A stretch of DNA of 64,000 nt from the NCBI GenBank assembly GCA_001899635.1, contig MKVQ01000043.1, forward strand, positions 493,962-557,961, read 5' to 3'. Both the position numbers and the translations under genes were made by a program. The stretch is from Myxococcales bacterium 68-20. Its GTDB lineage: Bacteria > Myxococcota_A > Polyangia > Polyangiales > Polyangiaceae. Below the pieces are notes generated by a model. It was not told where the DNA came from and did not search any database. It worked only from the letters and a program-made list of their open reading frames with translations. This document shows, piece by piece, positions 7,374 to 59,765 of the stretch. Each line of letters starts with the position of its first letter. Position 1 is the stretch's first letter.

Positions 7374-8408
7374 TTAGAAAATGCGCGCCTCCACCCCGAC
7401 GCTGAGTTGGCCCCCGGCGCTCGAGGGACTGAAGATGACGCTGGCCCCGTCGGAGGGGCCGAGGTCGCTCAGGACGAACCGAGAGCGAACGAGGGGGGCC
7501 GTGACCTCGACCGTTGCCACGATGGCAGCCGACCTTCCGAGCGGATACGCGCCGAAGGCTCCGGCTCGGACCGCGGGCCAGAACGTGACCATTCGGTAAC
7601 GTCGCTCCCCCCCGAAGCCGACGGCGGCTAGGCGTTCCACTCCCGTCCCTGCGCATCCACCGAGCTCGAATCGGCCGACAAGAGGCGCGTAGCACCCGCG
7701 CACGGCGAGGCGCATGAGCTGAAATTCCCCGCCAATCGAGGGTTGGTCCGGATGCGCGACGCGTTGTGGCCAATGTGCGCCGACCTCGAGCCCGACGCGG
7801 AATGGGCGTGGCCTCCAGGCGGAGTTGATCATGAAGCCTGGCCCCGGACTCGGGAGGCTTCCCAGAGTGGCGGTCGCTCCCGCTCCCAATGCCAGCAGCT
7901 GACGTGCGGGAACTACGCTCACGGGGCGAGGAATCGATTCGGTCCTTCGCTGGGGAGAAGGTGGAGGCACCGTCGTCGGCAGAGGGACCTCCGATGGCGT
8001 GGGCGACCGCTCCGCGGCGTCAACCATCGCGAGCGCCAGGATCACCGCCATCGCATGCCCGATCTCGACGCACGACTTGCCGACGATCGATCGTTCCGTG
8101 GTGGCTTTCTCCCCGCCTCTGGAACCGTCCGCGCTCACGATCAAGCGGACTCTCCATGCGTCCGGCTCCGACTGGAGAACGTTGGCCCATGCATCGAGTG
8201 GCCGTGGCGCGCTCAGCGCAGCGATCCGTTCGGCTTCGGCAACGATGTTCGCGCTGGACGGACACGATCCCGGAGGCTCCCAATCCAAATGGATGGGGGA
8301 CCGCGCCTCTTCAGCCCGAGCCGAACCGGTCACCGCGCACCACGCGAGCACGCAGGAGAGAGGCGCTTTCCAAACCCGAGCTCGAGCTCGTCCAGCGCTC
8401 CGCCTCAC
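7374..8408 (-). CDS. Secreted outer-membrane-barrel-like protein of unknown function
   Basis: 344 residues from GTG 8408. Signal peptide ends in ARAEE (about residue 33). Residues 40-130 form a mixed domain containing SCVEIGHAMAVILALAMVDAA; a Pro/Ser/Thr-rich linker follows (130-165); the rest (170-344) alternates Gly and aromatic or hydrophobic residues, as in GLEVGAHWPQRV, RLAVRGCYAPLVGRFELGGC and the terminal GGQLSVGVEARIF ending in Phe, as in outer-membrane barrels. It directly precedes the ECF sigma gene on the same strand and probably starts the cluster. Proteins of this layout often accompany myxobacterial ECF sigma genes, but their role is unknown to me. Confidence 0.8.
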   Translation of the reverse strand: MRRSAGRARARVWKAPLSCVLAWCAVTGSARAEEARSPIHLDWEPPGSCPSSANIVAEAERIAALSAPRPLDAWANVLQSEPDAWRVRLIVSADGSRGGEKATTERSIVGKSCVEIGHAMAVILALAMVDAAERSPTPSEVPLPTTVPPPSPQRRTESIPRPVSVVPARQLLALGAGATATLGSLPSPGPGFMINSAWRPRPFRVGLEVGAHWPQRVAHPDQPSIGGEFQLMRLAVRGCYAPLVGRFELGGCAGTGVERLAAVGFGGERRYRMVTFWPAVRAGAFGAYPLGRSAAIVATVEVTAPLVRSRFVLSDLGPSDGASVIFSPSSAGGQLSVGVEARIF

Positions 8409-8520
8409 TGGAACAGCTTATTCGAGCCGAGGCACCGAGTCAGCGCGCTTCGACGGCTGCGCTTTCTCCGCGGCCCCGCCCGGAGGCCCGGAACGGCGCT
8501 AAGATGCCGGGAGCGAATCC

Positions 8521-8766
8521 ATGAGGGACACCATCGTCGTCGCGCTCCTCGTCGTCGCCTTCGCGCTCGTGATCACGATGCACGTCGCGATCACGATCGG
8601 CCTCGCGAAGCGCAAGCCGCGATGGCGCGCCCTCGTCGCGTTCGTCGTTCCCCCCTTCGCTCCGTATTGGGCGTGGCACGAGCACATGCGGCGGCGCATG
8701 GGCCTCTGGGTCGGGGCCGTCCTCGTGTACCTCGCCATGCTCGTGCTCGCGTCGCGCGGCTCCTGA
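8521..8766 (+). CDS. Small two-helix membrane protein
   Basis: 81 residues. Helix 1 is about residues 5-27 (IVVALLVVAFALVITMHVAI), then a basic loop KRKPRW, a second hydrophobic stretch ALVAFVVPPFAPYWAW with a Pro pair, RRRMG, and a final helix GLWVGAVLVYLAMLVLA. High third-position GC on this strand supports coding. Divergent from the minus-strand sigma cluster and convergent with rsgA. Function not recognised. Confidence 0.75.
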   Translation: MRDTIVVALLVVAFALVITMHVAITIGLAKRKPRWRALVAFVVPPFAPYWAWHEHMRRRMGLWVGAVLVYLAMLVLASRGS

Positions 8767-8787
8767 GACGCGCCGCGCGCAGACCGT

Positions 8788-9870
8788 TCAGCGGCCCTTG
8801 TCCTTCAGGCGCTTGCGAAGCGCGACGGACATCGATCGGCCGTGCCGCTTGCTCTCGACGGCAGCGAAGGTCGCTTGTCGCGGTGAGAGCTCGACCTGTT
8901 CACGCGCGAGCTTCTGCCACGCCTGGAAGCGCTCCGCGGTGAGCTCGCCCGCGTCGAGCGCCGCGCGGACGGCGCACCCGGGCTCGCCCGAGTGCCCGCA
9001 ATCCCGATAGCGGCACGCCTCGGCGAGACCGGCGACGTCCTCGAACGCGTCGTCGATCTGCGAGCCCGCCGGGAGCCATGGCTTGAGCTCCCGCATCCCG
9101 GGGGTGTCGATGAGCAGCCCCGCGCCCGGCAACCTGAAGAGCTCGCGGCGCGTCGTCGTGTGTCGGCCGCGACCGTCGTGCTCGCGTACCGCTCCCTCGA
9201 GCTGCACCTCGCGCCCGAGCAAACGGTTCACGAGCGCCGACTTTCCGACCCCCGACGATCCGACGACTGCCGCGGTCGTCCCAGGAGGAATGCGCGCGAC
9301 GAGCTCGTCGATGCCATGGCCGGCCTTCGCGCTCGTGGCGAAAGCGGGAGCGAGCGCGCTCACCTGCTCGAGCAAAGGCGCGACGTCTTCGGCGAGGTCC
9401 GACTTCGTCAGGATGATCTGCGCCTCGGCGCCTCCGGCCGCGATCGCGACGAGATAGCGCTCGACGCGCCGGATGTTGAAGTCACTGTCGACCGCGGTGA
9501 CGACGAACACCCGATCGATGTTCGCCGCGATCGCCTGCGGCTCCGCTCGCTCGCCGGCGGCCTGCCGGAGGAACGCGGTCCGGCGCGGGAGGATCGCCTC
9601 GACGACGACTTCGTGCGCATCCGAGCCTGCTCGGCCGACGAGCACCCAGTCGCCGACGGCGACCCCACCTTCGATCGGAGCCTCCCGGATCGCGCGCGAG
9701 CGCAAGCTCGCCAGACGCGGTCCCTCCGGGGTCCACACGTCGACGCGAGCCGCATAGACGGAGGCGACCCTCGCCGGACGCAACCCCGACCGTTCCGGCG
9801 CCTGCCGCGCAAGGTCCTCGGACCAGCCGAGGTCTTCGAGCGTCATGCCATCCGGTGCGGTTCGTTCCAT
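8788..9870 (-). CDS. rsgA: Ribosome small-subunit biogenesis GTPase RsgA
   Basis: 360 residues, normal for the family. An N-terminal OB-fold (about 30-105) is followed by a circularly permuted GTPase domain: TKSD (G4), TSAK (G5), GSSGVGKSALVN (G1, P-loop), then the T-rich switch (HTTTRR) and DTPGM (G3). A C-terminal zinc-binding region has CRYRDCGHSGEPGC. RsgA hydrolyses GTP on the maturing 30S subunit to promote release of assembly factors. It is a single gene convergent with the small membrane protein upstream. Confidence 0.96.
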   Translation of the reverse strand: MERTAPDGMTLEDLGWSEDLARQAPERSGLRPARVASVYAARVDVWTPEGPRLASLRSRAIREAPIEGGVAVGDWVLVGRAGSDAHEVVVEAILPRRTAFLRQAAGERAEPQAIAANIDRVFVVTAVDSDFNIRRVERYLVAIAAGGAEAQIILTKSDLAEDVAPLLEQVSALAPAFATSAKAGHGIDELVARIPPGTTAAVVGSSGVGKSALVNRLLGREVQLEGAVREHDGRGRHTTTRRELFRLPGAGLLIDTPGMRELKPWLPAGSQIDDAFEDVAGLAEACRYRDCGHSGEPGCAVRAALDAGELTAERFQAWQKLAREQVELSPRQATFAAVESKRHGRSMSVALRKRLKDKGR

Positions 9871-33246: not shown

Positions 33247-33483
33247 GGTCGGTCTCCAACGCCATTTTGCCATGCCCCTCGCGACGAGGACGACGGTCTG
33301 CACACGACCGCGATCTCCTCGGAGCGAAGTGAAAGCGTTTGCACTTCACGTGCAGCCGCTCGCCGCCGCGACGCCACTTGGAGCCGGTAAGTCCTCGGAG
33401 TTCCTGCGTCGCGAGCCTGGCCAACACCTTGCACCGCCTACCTGCCGGTGCGCACGACCAGCACCGCGCGGAGAGAAGACAGC

Positions 33484-35544
33484 GTGCCCAGAACCCAACG
33501 AACGCGGCTGAATGGTGTCCTCGTGGTCCTGACGGCAGCGGGTGCGCTCGCTGCCTGTGGCGGTGGGAGCGGCGCAACCGGCAAGGGGCCGAGCGCCGCG
33601 AGCGAGCGGGCGATCACCGGTAAGGCCGGCGGCGCTGGCTGCATGGCGCCGTCGACCGCAGAGCCGATGAGCAAGGGCGGCGCTGGGTCGACCCTCGCGC
33701 TCGCGAAGGTCGGCGGAAGGCGCGTCGCGTTCGTCGCCGACGAGGACGCAAAGGCCCTCCTCACGATCGACCTCGACTCGCAGAGCCAGCTCGCGGAGAC
33801 GCGCCTCGAAGGCACGCCCGCGCAGGTGTGGGTCGCCGCCGACGGTCGCGTCTTCACGACGTTACGAGACAAGAGCGAGCTCGTCGCGCTCGCGGTATCG
33901 CGCCCCGACGCACCGCTCACCAGGCTTTGCAGCGCGACGACGCCGGCGGAGCCGATCGCGATTGCGGCGACGCCCGACGAGTCGACCATCCTCGTGTCGA
34001 GCGGCTGGGGGCAGAGGCTCGCCGCGTTCGAGGCGGCGTCACTCGCTGCCAAGTTCGAGGCGAAGCTGCCTCGCGAGCCGCGGGCGGTCGTCGTTGCGGA
34101 CGACGGCAAGACGGCCTTCGTCTCGCACGCGGTCGGCTCGGTGGTGAGCGTGGTCGATCTCGCCGGCGCGAAGCACGAGAGCCGTCCGTTGCCGATGCGC
34201 GGGATCGAGGCGCAACAGCTCCGCGCCCTCGCGAAGCAGCGCGCGATGCTCGAGCAGATGGCGAAGCGAACGGCATCCGGTTCGAACGAGATGCTCGCCG
34301 CGCTCGAGGAGCAGACGAGGCGCCTCGAGCGTCAGAGCTGCCAGGGATTCGCGCTCGCGAAGTCGTCCGCCGTGTCCGGGCGCATCTTCGCCCCGCAGGT
34401 CATGGTCGACCCCGGCGACCTCGACCAGCGGCCCGACGGCTATGGCGACGAGCATTCGCCGACCGAGACGCCTGCCGTCGCGGTCATCGACGAGACCGCG
34501 CAGACGCCGCTCCTCGCGAGCGTCACCCTCCGCCGCGATCCGCTCGTGTTCCTGAACCGCGGAGACACACGAGAGGCTCGGGCCGAGTGCCTCCTCCCGC
34601 GGGCGGCGGTCGTCGACACGAAGACGAGGTCGCTCCTCGTCACCTGCTACGGCATCGACGCCGTCGTCGCGTACGACGCGACCGCCGCGAATCCGCTCGC
34701 CGCCGAACGGCGCCGCTGGACCGTCGGCTCGGGACCGAGCGGCGTCGCAGTCGACACCGAGAAGCACCGCGCGGTGGTCTGGTCGCAGTTCGACCGCACC
34801 ATCTCCACGTTCGCGATCGGCGAGAGCGAGCTCGTCGACGAGAAGGTCTCACCGCTGACGGTCCAGAAGACCGCCGCCGCGCCTCTCCGCGAGAAGCTGC
34901 CGGCGGAGTACGCGCTCGGCCGCATCCTCTTCCACGCAACCGGCGACGCCCGCATCTCCGCAGACGGTCGCGCCTGCGCGAGCTGTCATCCCGATGGACG
35001 CGACGACGCGATCACCTGGGCGACGCCGGAGGGACCTCGTCGCTCGATCATGCTCGCCGGCCGCGCCGCCCCGACTCCGCCGTACTCGTGGAACGGCAAC
35101 GAGACGTCGCTCCACGGGCACCTCGCCAATACGTTCGATCGCCTGAGCGGCAAGGGGCTTCGCAGCATCGAGCTCGACGCGCTCGTCACGTACGTCTCCC
35201 AGATGCCCGCACCTCCTCGAGCGGCGCCAGCGGACAACGCCAAGATCGATCGCGGTCGTGCGATCTTCGCCTCGAGCGAGGCAGGCTGCTCGACGTGTCA
35301 CTCCGGAGCGACCTTCACCGACGGGCGCAACCACGACGTCGGCAGCAAGCACCGCGCCGACCGCGGAGCGACCTTCAACACGCCCTCGCTCCGTCTCGTC
35401 GGCGGCACGGGCCCGTACTTTCACGACGGTCGCTACGCGAACCTCACCGAGCTCCTGACGAAGAGCGACGGGAAGATGGGCCACACGAAGCACCTCTCCA
35501 ACGCGGACCTCGACGCGCTCGAGACCTACCTGAGGACGCTCTGA
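33484..35544 (+). CDS. Beta-propeller di-haem (two CxxCH) lipoprotein, cytochrome-c-peroxidase-like
   Basis: 686 residues from GTG 33484, with GGAGAG upstream. Lipobox LAAC (Cys25). An N-terminal YVTN-type propeller (about 70-450; VGSGPSGVAVDTEKHRAVVW) contains an inserted helical segment (about 240-290). The C-terminal part has CASCHPDG (about 500) and CSTCHSGA (about 601), the two c-type haem sites, with GPRRSIMLAGRAAPTPPYSW and HDGRYANLTEL as in MauG/CCP-type enzymes. It could reduce peroxide or carry electrons. Its stop overlaps the next ATG by one base. Confidence 0.88.
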   Translation: MPRTQRTRLNGVLVVLTAAGALAACGGGSGATGKGPSAASERAITGKAGGAGCMAPSTAEPMSKGGAGSTLALAKVGGRRVAFVADEDAKALLTIDLDSQSQLAETRLEGTPAQVWVAADGRVFTTLRDKSELVALAVSRPDAPLTRLCSATTPAEPIAIAATPDESTILVSSGWGQRLAAFEAASLAAKFEAKLPREPRAVVVADDGKTAFVSHAVGSVVSVVDLAGAKHESRPLPMRGIEAQQLRALAKQRAMLEQMAKRTASGSNEMLAALEEQTRRLERQSCQGFALAKSSAVSGRIFAPQVMVDPGDLDQRPDGYGDEHSPTETPAVAVIDETAQTPLLASVTLRRDPLVFLNRGDTREARAECLLPRAAVVDTKTRSLLVTCYGIDAVVAYDATAANPLAAERRRWTVGSGPSGVAVDTEKHRAVVWSQFDRTISTFAIGESELVDEKVSPLTVQKTAAAPLREKLPAEYALGRILFHATGDARISADGRACASCHPDGRDDAITWATPEGPRRSIMLAGRAAPTPPYSWNGNETSLHGHLANTFDRLSGKGLRSIELDALVTYVSQMPAPPRAAPADNAKIDRGRAIFASSEAGCSTCHSGATFTDGRNHDVGSKHRADRGATFNTPSLRLVGGTGPYFHDGRYANLTELLTKSDGKMGHTKHLSNADLDALETYLRTL

Positions 35545-51781: not shown

Positions 51782-53224
51782 TCAGTGCGCCGGCATGGCG
51801 ATCCAGCGCGGCACGACCGCGCCCGGCTTCCATCCGTTGCGCTGGCGAACGTCGTCGTCCGAGACCTTCGGCGGCCGGAGATAGATGTAATAGTCATCCG
51901 TTCGCTGGAAGAGGTCGCCGGATGCGTCGGCGTGCTCGCCGACGACCATCACGTTGTGGATCCTGATGTGCATGTAGCCTCGAACGAGCTCGTCGAACTT
52001 CTCGAAGTCGGCTCGGAACCGCACCGTGAAGATCTCCTTGCCCGTGATCCGATGCAGCCCGTTGGCGGATGACCGTTCGTCCTCGAGCATCTGGACCGGC
52101 TGCCAGGCTCGATCGAGCTGGATGAGGCAGTGCACCGAGGGCCCGAGCACGTAGAAGGCCTTCCCGGGGCTCAGGTTCTGAAGGTAGATGCGCACCACGT
52201 GGCTTCCGTCGGCCTCGGTGATCACGTCATCGATGTCCGCACGGAGCGTCTGCAGCGCGAGCTCTTCGGCCTGCCGCTTCTTCACCGCGTTCTCGTCGAT
52301 CGCACGCCGTTGAAAGCGAGCGGCTACGAAGTTGACGGCAAGGAGCGCGCCGGCGACGACGAGCGCCCACCCCACGAAGCCGGCCAGGAATCGCCCGACG
52401 CCCTCGCCCACGATGGTCGGCGCTGCAGGCTCGAGAGCCGGCGGCTCCGGCTCGAACGCCGCCTCCGGAGGCTCGTGTGCGCGCGCGAGATCGGCCCGCC
52501 TCGCCCGGGCATCCGCAGCCGGCGCGTCGGCGGCGAACGACGAACCGGACGGCGCCGACACGACCTTCCCGCTCGAGAGGTGGACGACCCGATCCGCGAG
52601 CCTCGCGACCGACGGATCGTGAGTGACGATCGCGAGCGTGGTCGAGTGGGACGCGTGGAGCGCGCAGAGGAGGGCGAGGACCTCCCGCTCCGCCTGCTCG
52701 TCGAGATCGTTCGTCGGCTCGTCTGCGAGGAGTAGCACTGGCCGGTTGACCAGCGCGCGAGCGAGCGCGACGCGCCGCTGCTGGCCGCCGGAAAGCTCGC
52801 CGGGATACGCGTCCCAGCGCGCGCCGAGGCCGACCTGGCCCAGGAGATCGCGCGCGCGATCGTAGGCCTCCTCGTAGCTCGTACCGCCGAGCAGGGCCGG
52901 CAACGCGATGTTGTCGACGGCACGATGGCTCGGCAGGAGCCCGCCGAACTGGAAGACGAAGCCGAAGCGACGAGCGCGGAGATCGGCGAGCGCGTGCGGC
53001 CCGAGCGCTCCGAGGTCGACGCCGTCCACCGAGACGGTCCCCTCCGTCGGCCGGCAGAGCCCGCCGAGCATGGCGAGGAGCGTGGACTTGCCGGACCCGG
53101 AGCGACCACAGATGGCAACCAGCTCACCTCGCTCGATCTCGAGATCGAGCCCGTCCACTGCCGCGATCGGACCACGTGGGGTCGAGTACGTCTTCCGAAG
53201 CGCACGGGCGTCGACGAGCATCAT
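51782..53224 (-). CDS. ABC transporter ATPase fused to a membrane-anchored extracytoplasmic domain
   Basis: 480 residues from ATG 53224 (ATGA overlap with the permease stop). ATPase of the LolD/MacB class: Walker A GRSGSGKSTL, Q-loop FVFQFGGLLPSHRA, signature ELSGGQQRRVALARAL, Walker B VLLLADEPTNDLDEQ and H-loop VTHDPSV. After about residue 235 comes an Ala/Pro/Glu linker, a membrane helix near 290-310 (FLAGFVGWALVVAGALLAVN) and a 170-residue beta-rich outside domain (VVRIYLQNLSPGKAFYVLG). This fusion is unusual. Likely an exporter with the FtsX-type gene upstream. Confidence 0.92.
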   Translation of the reverse strand: MMLVDARALRKTYSTPRGPIAAVDGLDLEIERGELVAICGRSGSGKSTLLAMLGGLCRPTEGTVSVDGVDLGALGPHALADLRARRFGFVFQFGGLLPSHRAVDNIALPALLGGTSYEEAYDRARDLLGQVGLGARWDAYPGELSGGQQRRVALARALVNRPVLLLADEPTNDLDEQAEREVLALLCALHASHSTTLAIVTHDPSVARLADRVVHLSSGKVVSAPSGSSFAADAPAADARARRADLARAHEPPEAAFEPEPPALEPAAPTIVGEGVGRFLAGFVGWALVVAGALLAVNFVAARFQRRAIDENAVKKRQAEELALQTLRADIDDVITEADGSHVVRIYLQNLSPGKAFYVLGPSVHCLIQLDRAWQPVQMLEDERSSANGLHRITGKEIFTVRFRADFEKFDELVRGYMHIRIHNVMVVGEHADASGDLFQRTDDYYIYLRPPKVSDDDVRQRNGWKPGAVVPRWIAMPAH

Positions 53225-54435
53225 GCGTTCTCTCCGCGGACGAGCGCGTACGGCTCCCGGCGAATGGCCTGCAGCGCCGGGACGAGCGCGCCGCCGATCC
53301 CGACGGCGCAGCACGAGACGACGGCAACGGCGCCCATCTGGAGGACCGCGCCGAGCGGCGGCCACGTGAACGGAACCTGACGGCTCGCGAAGGCGAAGCC
53401 CATCGATCGCTCGATCAGCAGCAGCGCGGCTCCTCCGAGGATGATGCCGCACAGGCCACCGAGCCCCGTCGTGAGGGCCGCCTCGGCGAGGATCAAGCGC
53501 GCGACCTCTCGCGGGCGCATCCCGACGGCGAGGAGGAGCCCGAGCTCGCGCCGTCGCTCACCGAGGAGACTCGAGTACATGGCTCCGGCCATGATCGCGG
53601 TGGTCGCGAGCATGAGGATCGTGAACATGAGCGCCCCGCCGAGGATCGACGTGAGCGTATGGCGAACAGAGGTATTGAGCCCGTTGCCGGTCACGATCTG
53701 GATGTCCTCCATGTTCGCCGTGGCGAAGCGGATCTGCTCGGTGGTGGCTCCGACCTTCAGACCTACGAGCAGCGCCGAACAGCGATCGGGAGACGGGTCG
53801 AAGACCTCCCTCCCCACCGTCTCCCGCGCGGCGGCCGCGATGTCGGCGGCGGTCTCGAAGGTCACGAAGTACGTGCGCTCGAACGGACCGACACCCGTCA
53901 AGGCGAGCTTGCCATAGACGGTCAACGATCGGCCGAAGAGCATCGCCGTACCGCCGGGTACCTCCGGTCGACGCCCGCCGACGATGACGTCACCACGACG
54001 GAGAGGCCGGTCCAGCTTCATCGAGAGCCAGGGCGTGATCGTGAAGTCGCGCCCCGGTTCGAAGGCGACCAGATCGTCCTGACCGTGCCCGTCGGCCGAT
54101 GGGAGCGCGAAGTACCGCTGCGGCGCCGCCATCGCGACGCCCGGCAGGCGCGCGATCGCCTCGACCGTCGCGGCGTCGATCGTCCGGTCCGTCGGCTCGA
54201 CGGTGAGCAGCGCAGCCGTGACGTTCACCGCCGTCCCGCGCGGGACGATCAAGAGGTCGGCCCCCATCCGGTTCATGCCGACGCTCGTGCTCTCCTGGAT
54301 CGCGGCCCGCAAGACGGAGGCAGTGAAGCCGGCGCCGCCACCGACGGCGACGACGAGCGCGAGCAGGATCGCCCGCACCGGACGATGCCGCAGGTGCTGC
54401 ACCGAGAGGCGCAGGAACATGGTTGCAGGATACAT
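53221..54435 (-). CDS. FtsX/MacB-type ABC transporter permease
   Basis: 404 residues. Start ATG 54435 sits just after a G-rich tract; ATG 54420 is an alternative. N-terminal helix LRHRPVRAILLALVVAVGGG, then a large extracytoplasmic domain (about 45-265), then three helices near 275-300, 325-350 and 375-395 with the conserved ERRRELGLLLAVGMRPREVA motif of FtsX permeases. It should work with the downstream ATPase to move a substrate or do mechanotransmission across the envelope. Confidence 0.92.
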   Translation of the reverse strand: MYPATMFLRLSVQHLRHRPVRAILLALVVAVGGGAGFTASVLRAAIQESTSVGMNRMGADLLIVPRGTAVNVTAALLTVEPTDRTIDAATVEAIARLPGVAMAAPQRYFALPSADGHGQDDLVAFEPGRDFTITPWLSMKLDRPLRRGDVIVGGRRPEVPGGTAMLFGRSLTVYGKLALTGVGPFERTYFVTFETAADIAAAARETVGREVFDPSPDRCSALLVGLKVGATTEQIRFATANMEDIQIVTGNGLNTSVRHTLTSILGGALMFTILMLATTAIMAGAMYSSLLGERRRELGLLLAVGMRPREVARLILAEAALTTGLGGLCGIILGGAALLLIERSMGFAFASRQVPFTWPPLGAVLQMGAVAVVSCCAVGIGGALVPALQAIRREPYALVRGENA

Positions 54436-54515
54436 CTCCCCCCCAGCGGCCCCACTCGCACCGGGCGAGAGGAGCCGACAGACCGTCGATCAGAACGATG
54501 CGCGATCGGTGGACC

Positions 54516-56078
54516 TCAGACGGTGCTGCTGCGACTCCACTTGAGCTCCTCGACCTTGCTCGGGACGATCACGCAGTCGTGATGGCCGCCGAAGTTCGGC
54601 ATGTATCCGACGGGATCGAGCGTGTCTTGTCGGAAGACGAACGCCCCCGCCTCCATTCGCTGGAAGCCGCTGAAGATCTGGAGGACGTACTTGCCGTCGT
54701 ACGTGACGTGCATCGTCTGGCAGTCGACGCCGACGTTGGGGAACGTCTTGATGATCTTCCACGTCTTGGTATCGACGACGACGACATCGCTCTTCGCCGG
54801 CTTCGGCCTGAGGACGGAGAGGAACATCTTCGAGCCGTCGACGGAGAAGCAGACGTGGAACGGCGACGGATACTCGCCCACCCACGAGGGATCGGTGACG
54901 TGCGTGATGCGCTTCCACTTCCGCGGATCGCCGTCGCTCGAGTCGAAGACCCCCACGTTGTTGGCGCGGAGGTTGTTCATGACCACCCAGTGGCTGCCCG
55001 AGGGGGTGAAGCCCCCCTCGTGGGTCGGATTGAAGACCGCCGGCAGCACGATCTCCCAGGTATCGGGGCTGCTCGAGATCTTCTTGATGGGAATGTTGTG
55101 GTCGCCCTTCTCGGCGCCGTAGAGAAAGCAGACGGGCTCCCAGTTCTTTCGATCGAGGACGATCCCGCCGCCGCACATGCGAAGGAGCATGATCGACCAG
55201 CGACCGCGGGGATCGTGCTGGCTGAAGTCGAGGCCGGTCAGGGTTTGCGGTGAGTCTCCGGGGATCTGCCCGCGCTCGACGAGCAGCTCCGCCATCGGTG
55301 CCATCTCGTAGTTGAGCTTGTTGCCCCTCGTTCCTTCGAGGTCGTACTTGCCGAGCTCCTTCGCCATCGCGAGACGCTGGAGGCGGATCTTCCCGCCCTT
55401 CGTCCACGTCTCCCCGAGGTGCGGCGAGTTCGGGACCCAGTCGGCGCGGAACGCCATCAGCACCTTGGTCTTCTCCTTGCCGCGGGCGCGGGTGAAGAAG
55501 GCGGTGACGTCCTTCTGCCCGTCCGCGCAGGCGAAGCCCTCTCCGTCGGGGAAGATCGTCGTGTGCACGCCGAGCCCGATCCCGGTCGTCTCGGAGATGT
55601 CCTCGAGGAGCTCCATCTGGTTGGCCGCGCCGTCATAGCCGACGCGGTAGATGTGATTGCCCTCTCCGTAGCGACCGAGGAGCCCATTCTCCTTGATGCG
55701 AGTGGGGATGCCGTACATGAGGACGTTGTCACCGCCCTGCGTCGAGTTGACGAACTCGAAGCCCTTGTACGGATCGCCGTGATCGGGCGGGAAGGCCGCC
55801 ACGTGGTGCGAGATCGGGCAGCTGTCGCCGTAGTTCCAGTAGGAGATCCAGGCCAACGTCTTGCCGACCTCGAGGTCGACGGCGTGCGTGCCGCCGCCGA
55901 GCTTCTGGGGCGTCAAGTAGATGTAACGACCGAGCGGCTCCTTGATGTAGCCGGGATAGGCATTCGACGGCGGTGGGCTGAACGCATCCATCCCCTTCAC
56001 CAATCGATGAAGGCCGAGGCCGGCGACACCAGCGGCGCCGTACTTCAGCAGATTGCGACGGTTCAAGAGCTTCGACAT
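54516..56078 (-). CDS. Tat-exported His-rich beta-propeller protein, distantly NosZ-like
   Basis: 520 residues from ATG 56078 (GGGAGG 5 nt upstream). Twin-arginine signal NRRNLLKYGAAGVAGLG. The body looks like a seven-bladed propeller with repeated His-containing turns: CPISHHVAAF, LGVHTTIFPDGE, SQHDPRGRW, THEGGFTPSGSHWVVMNN, SPFHVCFSVDGSKM, CQTMHVTYDGKY and GGHHDCVIVP. In nitrous-oxide reductase seven His at the propeller centre hold CuZ; the C-terminal CuA cupredoxin domain is missing here. A metal-binding propeller enzyme is inference. Confidence 0.78.
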   Translation of the reverse strand: MSKLLNRRNLLKYGAAGVAGLGLHRLVKGMDAFSPPPSNAYPGYIKEPLGRYIYLTPQKLGGGTHAVDLEVGKTLAWISYWNYGDSCPISHHVAAFPPDHGDPYKGFEFVNSTQGGDNVLMYGIPTRIKENGLLGRYGEGNHIYRVGYDGAANQMELLEDISETTGIGLGVHTTIFPDGEGFACADGQKDVTAFFTRARGKEKTKVLMAFRADWVPNSPHLGETWTKGGKIRLQRLAMAKELGKYDLEGTRGNKLNYEMAPMAELLVERGQIPGDSPQTLTGLDFSQHDPRGRWSIMLLRMCGGGIVLDRKNWEPVCFLYGAEKGDHNIPIKKISSSPDTWEIVLPAVFNPTHEGGFTPSGSHWVVMNNLRANNVGVFDSSDGDPRKWKRITHVTDPSWVGEYPSPFHVCFSVDGSKMFLSVLRPKPAKSDVVVVDTKTWKIIKTFPNVGVDCQTMHVTYDGKYVLQIFSGFQRMEAGAFVFRQDTLDPVGYMPNFGGHHDCVIVPSKVEELKWSRSSTV

Positions 56079-56113
56079 CCGTGCCTCCCATCCAGATGAA
56101 TGCGTTCGTCCGC

Positions 56114-56797
56114 TCACGGCCCGTAGTGGCATCCGGTCGTCAGTGCGTTCGGCATGCCGACCACGTCCAAGGGCCGCTCCTCGATGCCCGCGAGCTTCGC
56201 GATCCGCCGTCCGAGCTCGTGCAACGCCTCCACGGAGCTCCCGGGCCAGTAGCCGTCGATCACTCCGGTCGCGGTGAGGACGGCGACGTAACAGCCGTTC
56301 TTCGCGCCGAAGCGGCGGATGATCTTCTTGTCCGCATCCGCGAGGACCGGATACGGCACGTGCTGCTCGGTCGCATATCGCCTGGCCCCATCGACGCCGG
56401 CGTCGATGATCCCGACGAAGCGCGCCAAGCCCCGATAGACCTGCTCGATCCGGTGAAAGTACGGCTCGAACTCGATGCTGCAGGGGCAGCCGCTCTTGAT
56501 GAAGACGAGGACGACCGGCAGCCCACCGCTGATGTCTCCCCAGCTCAGATGGCGACCGTCGCTCGCGACGGCATCGAGACCGTCGATGGCTCGCTCGAGC
56601 ATCGCGTTCGATTCGAGGAGCTGCGAGGGCGCGACGTAGTGGGGAGTCCGTCCGGCGCTGCTCGGCAGGATGGCACGCGCGGGATCGTGCAGAGCGCCCT
56701 CGGCGATCCCGCTGGGGTCGAGCCAGCCGATCGCCCCGGTGACGCTCGCGCACGTCGCGATGACGATCCAGGGGAGTGCTCCTTGAAGACGACCCAT
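56114..56797 (-). CDS. Membrane-anchored redoxin-like protein
   Basis: 227 residues from ATG 56797 with GGAAGGAG upstream. N-terminal anchor LPWIVIATCASVTGAIGW. The thioredoxin-fold part (about 80-200) has VVLVFIKSGCPCSIEFEPYF, a CxC pair in the place of the CxxC, then FVGIIDAGVD and PVLADADKKIIRRFGAKN, like AhpC/TSA or Sco-type redoxins. It lies 35 nt upstream of the Tat propeller gene and should be expressed with it, possibly to deliver metal or keep Cys reduced. Confidence 0.87.
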   Translation of the reverse strand: MGRLQGALPWIVIATCASVTGAIGWLDPSGIAEGALHDPARAILPSSAGRTPHYVAPSQLLESNAMLERAIDGLDAVASDGRHLSWGDISGGLPVVLVFIKSGCPCSIEFEPYFHRIEQVYRGLARFVGIIDAGVDGARRYATEQHVPYPVLADADKKIIRRFGAKNGCYVAVLTATGVIDGYWPGSSVEALHELGRRIAKLAGIEERPLDVVGMPNALTTGCHYGP

Positions 56798-57882: not shown

Positions 57883-59304
57883 TCAGCCCTTGAGGACTCC
57901 GACCGGAACGAGCCGCGCGACCTTGCGCGCGATGCCCGCGCGGTGGACGACGTCGACGACGCGTTCGACGTCCTTGTACGCAATGGGCGCTTCTTCGGCG
58001 AGCTCGGCATTGGACGGACATCGAACGGCGATCCCCTGGGAGGCGAGCTCCCTCCGTAGCTCACCTCCTTTCACCTGCCCTCTCGCCGCCGTCCGGCTCA
58101 TCGCACGTCCCGCACCATGGCATGCGCTCGCGAACGACAGCGTGCTCGCCCCGGATCCGACCAGAACGAAGGACGCCGTCCCCATGCTGCCTGGGATCAG
58201 CACCGGCTGCCCGATCGCCCGATACGGCGCCGGGACGTCATCGTCGTCGGGCCCGAACGCGCGCGTCGCTCCCTTGCGGTGCACGCAGACACGCTTGCCT
58301 CCGTGCTGCTCGATCTTGGCGATGTTGTGCGCCACGTCGTAGACGACGCGCACGACGGCATTCGGATTCGCTTCCCGGAACGCCTCTCGAACGCGATGCG
58401 TGAGCACCTCTCGATTCGCGAAGGCGAAGTTCGCCGCCGCGCACATGGCCGCGAAGTAGGCACCGCCCTCGGGCGATGCGAACGGCACGCACGCGAGCTG
58501 GCGGTCGGGAAGCGTGATGCCGTAACGCGCGAGCGAGGCGTCCATCGCGCGGACGTGATCGGTGCACACCTGATGCCCGAGACCGCGCGAGCCCGTGTGG
58601 ACGAGGACCGTGATCTGATCGAGCTCGAGGCCGAGCGTGCGAGCAGCTTCACGGTCGTAGATCGCCTGGACGAGCTGGATCTCGAGGAAGTGGTTGCCCC
58701 CGCCGAGCGTCCCGAGCTGATCTCGTCCGCGATGCTTCGCGCGATCCGAGACCGCCGAGGCCCGCGCCCCCACGAGCTGCCCGCCCCCCTCGATGCATGC
58801 GAGGTCCTCCTCGCTCCCGAGCTCGAACCGGCGAACGATCTCCGGCGCGCCGCCTTCGAGGATACGGTCGAGATCGGCGTGCGAGAGCTCGAGACGACCA
58901 CCGTGACCGTAGCCCGCGGGGACGCTCCGCATGAGCTGGTGGAGCAGCGGCTCGACGTCCACGTCGCCTCGCGAGATGTTCGTCGCGAGGAGGCGAACCC
59001 CGCAGTTGATATCGAAGCCGATCCCGCCCGGGGAAATGACACCGTCGGTGACCGATGTCGCTGCCACGCCGCCCACGGGGAAGCCGTACCCCTCGTGCAT
59101 GTCCGGCATCCCGACGACGTGACCGACGAGCCCCGGCAGAGTCGCGACGTTGAGGAGCTGCTCGATGCTCCTGTCCCGCCCGATCTGACCGAACAAGACC
59201 TCGTCGGCGACGATGCGGGCCGGGACGCGCATGCCGGCGCGTGCGTTCCTGTCCGCCTCGTAGATCGCATCGCTGACGTGCGAGAAGCTCTGAGACCACC
59301 CCAT
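57883..59304 (-). CDS. rtcB: RNA-splicing ligase RtcB
   Basis: 473 residues from ATG 59304 (GAGGGAG upstream). RtcB joins 2',3'-cyclic phosphate or 3'-phosphate and 5'-OH RNA ends using GTP and Mn. Motifs seen: PDMHEGYGFPVGGVA, GGIGFDINCGVRL (metal Cys), LGTLGGGNHFLEIQ, HTGSRGLGHQ and the guanylated His in ACHGAGRAMSR near the C-terminus. All catalytic residues are present. It follows the archease gene by 26 nt. Confidence 0.97.
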   Translation of the reverse strand: MGWSQSFSHVSDAIYEADRNARAGMRVPARIVADEVLFGQIGRDRSIEQLLNVATLPGLVGHVVGMPDMHEGYGFPVGGVAATSVTDGVISPGGIGFDINCGVRLLATNISRGDVDVEPLLHQLMRSVPAGYGHGGRLELSHADLDRILEGGAPEIVRRFELGSEEDLACIEGGGQLVGARASAVSDRAKHRGRDQLGTLGGGNHFLEIQLVQAIYDREAARTLGLELDQITVLVHTGSRGLGHQVCTDHVRAMDASLARYGITLPDRQLACVPFASPEGGAYFAAMCAAANFAFANREVLTHRVREAFREANPNAVVRVVYDVAHNIAKIEQHGGKRVCVHRKGATRAFGPDDDDVPAPYRAIGQPVLIPGSMGTASFVLVGSGASTLSFASACHGAGRAMSRTAARGQVKGGELRRELASQGIAVRCPSNAELAEEAPIAYKDVERVVDVVHRAGIARKVARLVPVGVLKG

Positions 59305-59330
59305 CGCGGCTCTCCCTCGGAGCGAGCGAC

Positions 59331-59744
59331 TCAGACGTCGAGCACGACCGTCGCCTCGACACCGTCGTCGCACGAACGGATGCGGAGGCCGTGCCACGTC
59401 GCAGCCTTGACCGCCGTTCGCGGAGCCAGAGGTTCGCGTCCACGGACGATCGCCTCGAGCTCACGCTCGTCGATGCGGGCGACCGTGACGTCCGCGTACA
59501 CGCACTTGTTGACCTCTCCGTGATACACGAGCTCGTTGAGCCAATCGACGAGGAGCGCGTCGCGGTCGCTCGACGTCAATGTGATGCGCTCCTCGGACCT
59601 CGTCGGCGCCCCGCCCGCATCCTCCGCTTGGAGCTCGGCCAGCGCGCGCGCCGCCTCCTCGAAGAGCGCCGCGAGGCTCGGTGCCTCGACCGTCAGCTCG
59701 ACCTCTCCCGTGTGCTCGCCGAAGCGATGGCGCGGCTGCCTCAT
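59331..59744 (-). CDS. Archease, RtcB activator
   Basis: 137 residues from ATG 59744; GTG 59747 is one codon earlier. Archease keeps RtcB active by helping guanylation and metal exchange. Pattern HTGEVELTVEAPSLAALFEE (the H-T-x-D/E start), LLVDWLNELVYHGEVNK and the end VEATVVLDV fit the family. It lies 18 nt after the PanE-like stop and 26 nt before rtcB, so the pair is in one operon. Confidence 0.93.
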   Translation of the reverse strand: MRQPRHRFGEHTGEVELTVEAPSLAALFEEAARALAELQAEDAGGAPTRSEERITLTSSDRDALLVDWLNELVYHGEVNKCVYADVTVARIDERELEAIVRGREPLAPRTAVKAATWHGLRIRSCDDGVEATVVLDV

Positions 59745-59765
59745 CACACGCCGACAATCTATGTC

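Follow-up and report, generated by a model that had tools for sequence, protein, structure and literature searches.

Thiocyanate dehydrogenase (TcDH) has been described from a small number of sulfur bacteria. The enzyme is dimeric; each subunit is a seven-bladed propeller, and three coppers occupy the central tunnel. It converts thiocyanate to cyanate and sulfur, and its electrons are thought to reach cytochrome c via Cu2, His528/Lys103 and Tyr164 (PMC9456337). TcDH genes next to a thioredoxin-like gene, or next to FtsX-type ATP-binding cassette (ABC) genes, have already been published (PMC6504805, PMC5744179, PMC5328954). The neighbour of type II TcDH, a thioredoxin-like protein lacking Cys, has been proposed as a sulfur acceptor (Tsallagov et al., PMC6504805), and a type II TcDH that was purified showed no activity (PMC6934394). 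Here we describe a relative of these systems in a stretch of 64,000 nucleotides (the window) from Myxococcales bacterium 68-20 (GCA_001899635.1, contig MKVQ01000043.1, positions 493,962 to 557,961). Four genes on its minus strand, at 51782-56797, encode a redoxin, a propeller protein with a twin-arginine translocation (Tat) leader, an ABC permease and an ABC ATPase that carries a domain outside the membrane. We propose that this cassette probably makes and runs a periplasmic multi-copper oxidoreductase descended from TcDH, with its own maturation machinery and a re-tuned copper site. The family is known, and the branch of it to which the propeller belongs appears to be a distinct and undescribed variant.

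Results

The propeller is a member of the TcDH family

The propeller gene (54516-56078, minus strand) encodes 520 residues, of which 49-519 match the TcDH of Pelomicrobium with an E value of 1e-138 in a search of PDB sequences. This is the only family matched over the full length, with identities of about 41-45% to type I and about 30% to type II enzymes, and judged by its sequence the protein is a full-length TcDH homologue. Its AlphaFold model (mean predicted local distance difference test score, pLDDT, of 83.6, low mostly in the leader and a few loops) is a seven-bladed propeller of the TcDH type and best fits the TcDH crystal structures (8q9x, Z 58.6, root-mean-square deviation 1.7 Å over 459 residues), followed by other propellers at Z 32 or lower. 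The N-terminus has the twin-arginine motif NRRNLLK, and Pfam TAT_signal matches at E 0.003, which is under its cut-off; the Tat export proposed in an earlier reading of the DNA (the sequence-only reading) stays a prediction that the leader agrees with.

The same reading had singled out seven histidines. These residues (H91, H92, H172, H353, H408, H499 and H500) are conserved in all 42 branch members of our tree, and six of them align with the active-site histidines 135, 136, 206, 381, 437 and 528 of TcDH, and on this evidence they are not expected to be scattered. Because both the residues and the gene order around them recur across many phyla, the conservation goes beyond chance. The earlier suggestion that several His form a metal site in the middle of the propeller is supported by the full-length homology and by the modelled fold; as a whole, this predicted site is not the undescribed one that had been envisaged, TcDH having been published.

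A branch of the family without His482

Tsallagov et al. list 13 active-site residues of TcDH (PMC6504805, Fig. 4), and on structure 5oex the published numbering places all 13 on the expected letters. In alignments the window propeller retains 12 of them, the exception being His482, which is replaced by Gln454 (codon at 54717-54719). The electron-exit residues Lys103 and His528 are conserved and Tyr164 is nearly invariant, and equivalents of Lys103, His136, Glu288, Asp314, Asp529 and Arg544 are all present in the propeller. Our tree has 50 rows, 42 in the branch and eight outside it (5oex, 8q9x, the His482 TcDH of locus L083 and five gammaproteobacterial type II sequences). None of the 42 has His at position 482 (41 have Gln, and L002 has Glu), whereas all eight outside rows do. 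Support for the branch is moderate (94/68) when the long-branched Tautonia sequence is included and good (99/94) when it is left out. The nearest relative of the window propeller, at 76-77% identity, is the Glu-bearing protein of L002, from a Methylococcaceae metagenome-assembled genome (G402).

The loss of His482 is accompanied by gains. Met259 and Met262, in a Met-Ala-Pro-Met stretch (55293-55304) that adjoins Glu258, the equivalent of catalytic Glu288, occur in 42/42 and 41/42 branch rows, at positions where TcDH has Leu or Ala, and Gly. His288 (55215-55217) is found in all 39 core members, and TcDH has Phe/Tyr318 or Trp there. The fixed loss of His482 together with the gain of the two methionines points to changed ligands at the copper site, and the substrate may differ as well. 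His457, three residues past Gln454, was considered as a general substitute for His482 and dismissed, since only four of the 39 core members have it. We take His482 to be a direct copper ligand in TcDH, and which copper it binds is likewise our assumption; His482Gln mutants of TcDH studied structurally are reportedly impaired. The title of PDB entry 6sji reads "His 482 replaced by Gln", and 8yu5 and 8yu6 carry the matching H447Q change of the Pelomicrobium enzyme.

In the open literature that names TcDH, no title or abstract ties it to the phyla of the branch; one full text names Verrucomicrobia (PMC8061750), and a figure of PMC6504805 may include some homologues. A branch without His482, its compact cassette, and an outside domain ending in M-P-x-H appear to be undescribed.

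A compact cassette with an outside domain fused to the ATPase

All four genes had been predicted by the sequence-only reading, with correct outer coordinates. The genes for permease and ATPase overlap (ATGA) and the remaining intergenic gaps are only 35 and 80 bases, so that a four-gene operon is likely; a scan of the cassette for promoters and terminators gave no useful signal. The permease (53221-54435, minus strand, 404 residues, Pfam FtsX E 6e-12) is of the FtsX/MacB type, with one hydrophobic segment near the N-terminus and about three near the C-terminus. The ATPase (51782-53224, minus strand, 480 residues, ABC_tran E 4e-32) is LolD/MacB-like and matches LolD at E 1e-65, under the equivalog cut-off. 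An FtsX-domain permease next to such an ATPase marks a type VII (MacB/LolCDE/FtsEX) system. A single hydrophobic segment at about residues 276-305 of the ATPase is followed by the outside domain (51785-52309, minus strand), as had been anticipated. In a high-confidence AlphaFold 2 model (pLDDT 92) this domain is a beta-sandwich carried by a long helix. None of 27 members has a Pfam match, and comparison with PDB folds returned generic beta-sandwiches only (best Z 8.2). An internal Y-x-H-x-R and the terminal W-x-x-M-P-x-H are invariant in 29/29; the window protein ends in W-I-A-M-P-A-H-COOH.

What such a domain might have been before its fusion is suggested by L083, from a Thermodesulfovibrionales genome. 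Here the order is a His482 TcDH, FtsX, ATPase, FtsX (in two frames), ATPase and two separate outside-domain proteins, one of which ends in PVWIPMPPH. The same arrangement has been published for Thioalkalivibrio, where thiocyanate induces the genes and a single helix lies at the N-terminus of one hypothetical protein (PMC5744179, PMC5328954). By position and topology, rather than by their sequences, we infer that the Thioalkalivibrio hypothetical proteins correspond to the outside domain. Since the operon of a His482 TcDH carries the domain as two separate proteins, the cassette is a compacted TcDH operon.

The redoxin (56114-56797, minus strand, 227 residues, AhpC-TSA in Pfam at E 2e-7) has the N-terminal hydrophobic anchor and the CxC motif (C104-P-C106-S) that had been noted, and ends with G222-C223. 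Both CxC and the C-terminal GC are invariant in 21/21 cassette redoxins. A Sco/SenC identity was rejected, because AhpC-TSA is the sole Pfam match above cut-off and the motif is CxC and not CxxxC. The redoxin adjoins the cassette in Planctomycetota and Verrucomicrobiota loci and in the window, and was not found at Melainabacteria or Beijerinckiaceae loci; it is an optional fourth gene of the cassette.

Distribution of the branch

A scan of one genome per species gave 48 related loci, and others were added by sampling more genomes; metagenomic contigs carry the organism names given in their records, not all of which seem reliable. The branch is patchy and occurs in at least six phyla, with hosts that include freshwater Verrucomicrobia, Planctomycetota, Melainabacteria, methanotrophs and the large-genome host of the window. 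Named strains are Methylocapsa acidiphila B2 (L038), Singulisphaera sp. GP187, S. acidiphila DSM 18658 and Tautonia sociabilis GM2012. As had been expected from the sequence-only reading, the genes are found together elsewhere: FtsX is present at 38 of the 48 loci, and the ATPase comes next wherever the contig continues. Five of the ten loci without FtsX end at the match, L045 is rearranged, and L002, L032, L036 and L041 have no FtsX gene nearby. Gene order is permuted in L039, and the ATPase is unfused in L042 and L083 (His482 TcDH). Genes flanking the cassette vary between lineages. Of 392 Planctomycetota genomes, two have the full-length propeller, and these two are also the only ones with the outside domain, one of them having a short second fragment as well; in a panel of 19 genomes, the outside domain is confined to propeller loci. 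That the genes have remained neighbours across phyla supports a functional link of the propeller with the redoxin and the ABC system.

Several loci deserve mention in their own right. In a Verrucomicrobia subdivision 6-like family (G412) with genomes of 1.3-2.2 Mb, the propeller is a near-core gene, present in 14/21 genomes. In S. acidiphila DSM 18658 (L040:6530-10047) a transposase-like open reading frame (ORF; 7484-8950, minus strand) interrupts the propeller gene after about codon 183, and the remaining cassette is intact; as the propeller of Singulisphaera sp. GP187 (L021) is whole, the two form a natural knock-out pair. At L045:5727-6443 the propeller N-terminus is joined to the C-terminal end of the ATPase's outside domain, through an internal deletion that removed most of the cassette or through a misassembly. 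In L037:4246-5780, from Beijerinckiaceae USCalpha, the ATPase is encoded in one frame and the outside domain in another that overlaps it, with a stop inside; the gene is either truly split or affected by a sequencing error.

The host genome

The host genome measures 11.9 Mb at about 69% G+C. None of 58 relative genomes, 11 congeners among them, has the propeller, which makes horizontal transfer the probable source of the cassette. Those flanking genes that were tested (M48 peptidase, 2-oxoglutarate oxygenase, trypsin-like protein, DUF1801, RtcB, ketopantoate reductase and AMP-binding enzyme) are unrelated; the RtcB RNA ligase gene and an adjacent archease-like ORF (57883-59747, minus strand) lie just upstream of the cassette and have no apparent relation to it. 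No CxxCH protein is encoded within 18 kb of the cassette. At that distance, at 33391-35541 on the plus strand, a 717-residue ORF has two haem c motifs (CASCH and CSTCH) and is perhaps a di-haem protein like cytochrome c peroxidase.

A cyanase gene lies on the same contig about 460 kb from the cassette (L100:7885-8331; G000:C43 about 82 kb), which is compatible with thiocyanate use, as cyanate is its product. Cyanase is present in 4/57 relatives and in none of the 11 congeners searched. As proof of thiocyanate use its co-occurrence with the branch was discarded, since the 4/13 Gln-branch hosts that have it (window genome counted) are too few to decide.

Discussion

How might such a cassette work? 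We envisage that the propeller folds in the cell and exits via Tat, and that the ATP cycle of the type VII (FtsX/MacB-like) ABC complex would move the outside domain in the periplasm. With its His/Met C-terminus this domain may hold or insert copper, by which the site would be matured or re-activated. The CxC redoxin, where present, could keep copper or thiols reduced or take up sulfur. The mature enzyme would then take two electrons from a small anion, either sulfur-bearing or a pseudohalide, and pass them to a c-type cytochrome. The leading candidate for the substrate is thiocyanate, given that all other active-site residues are conserved and that the host has a cyanase for the cyanate, and we hold this candidate tentatively, at somewhat less than an even chance. 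A number of observations weigh against the proposal. Whole-genome searches of G402, G404 and G407 did not find the outside domain anywhere despite the presence of the propeller, so that solitary propellers exist. The residue that is replaced is also the one picked for mutation in two TcDHs. Pfam tests of the flanking genes found no copCD, Cus, tatA, fccAB or cytochrome genes beside the cassette, and cyanase is missing in nine of the 12 other branch hosts of the panel.

The branch may be a distinct enzyme class with a copper site that is one His ligand short (perhaps with two coppers, or with Gln, Met259 and Met262 as ligands), a substrate other than thiocyanate and a private, ATP-driven copper-insertion complex, spread over its six or more phyla; this strong form of the proposal is plausible, and we would not quite bet on it. 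An ordinary TcDH, in which Gln482 is a tolerated change of a ligand or second-shell residue and the host's oxidation of thiocyanate yields sulfur along with cyanate for its cyanase, would explain the otherwise intact active site, the operon kinship with the TcDH of L083 and the cyanase gene itself. However, the clean split at position 482 between the branch and all rows outside it and the linked changes at Met259, Met262 and His288 suggest re-tuning, and the hosts without cyanase fit it poorly, which leaves this explanation credible and rather doubtful.

With an active-site His gone and an ABC complex of the mechanotransmission type bearing a fused outside domain, the protein could be a catalytically dead or sensory descendant of TcDH that senses or stores copper or an anion by binding it at the site, the ABC complex transducing the signal. 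Conservation of the equivalents of Lys103, His136, Glu288, Asp314, Asp529 and Arg544 would be unexpected in a dead enzyme, the propeller is retained in genomes as small as those of G412, and no regulator is among the nearby genes, so that we consider this unlikely. The sequence-only reading had likened the histidines to the CuZ site of nitrous oxide reductase (NosZ), and a propeller with a multi-His site, ABC genes and a redoxin would indeed be the parts of a CuZ-like nitrous oxide reductase, or of another NosZ relative, assembled by a NosDFY-like system. That likeness in particular did not survive profile comparison: no NosZ model matched in Pfam or NCBIfam, and the clade III L-NosZ model scored 13.5 bits against a cut-off of 700. 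The C-terminal CuA cupredoxin domain of NosZ clades I and II was not found, the protein ending with the propeller, as had been noted. TcDH is also by far the closest fold (Z 58 vs 32); NosZ is not in the list of fold matches, and we do not count this against kinship. Such a relationship is very improbable.

For the "hypothetical" genes of TcDH operons, our proposal of a TcDH-derived oxidoreductase provides a predicted shape and a role in copper handling that can be tested. If the branch turns over thiocyanate, thiocyanate oxidation is far commoner than thought; if it does not, new copper chemistry awaits its substrate. The branch also offers, as a product of nature, the change that was engineered in the His482Gln mutants.

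Compared with type I TcDH (Thioalkalivibrio paradoxus, 5f75/5oex; Pelomicrobium methylotrophicum, 8q9x), the window propeller has the same fold, length, Tat leader, 12/13 active-site residues and Tyr164, but has Gln for His482 and has gained Met259, Met262 and His288. Both have an FtsX permease gene adjoining the enzyme gene and, in the same operon type (L083), an outside-domain protein. However, where type I TcDH has two permease/ATPase pairs and two separate hypothetical proteins, the cassette has a single permease and a single fused ATPase, and it lacks copCD, tatA, fccAB and a cytochrome gene beside it. Type II TcDH (Thiohalobacter/Guyparkeria-like; here L078-L082) shares a homologous propeller and, as published, a thioredoxin-like neighbour (PMC6504805), but it retains His482, its neighbour has no Cys motif, it comes with a Cus system, and the L078-L082 genomes have no outside domain. 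NosZ with NosDFY/NosL and Sco offers analogous parts (a propeller copper enzyme, an ABC system and a redoxin), yet no sequence kinship was detected, and the cassette has no CuA domain, an FtsX-type system in place of NosDFY and a redoxin that is not Sco-like by Pfam. Finally, the permease and ATPase are of the same domain type as those of the type VII systems LolCDE, MacB and FtsEX, from which the cassette differs in that its ATPase has its own transmembrane helix and an outside domain ending in M-P-x-H.

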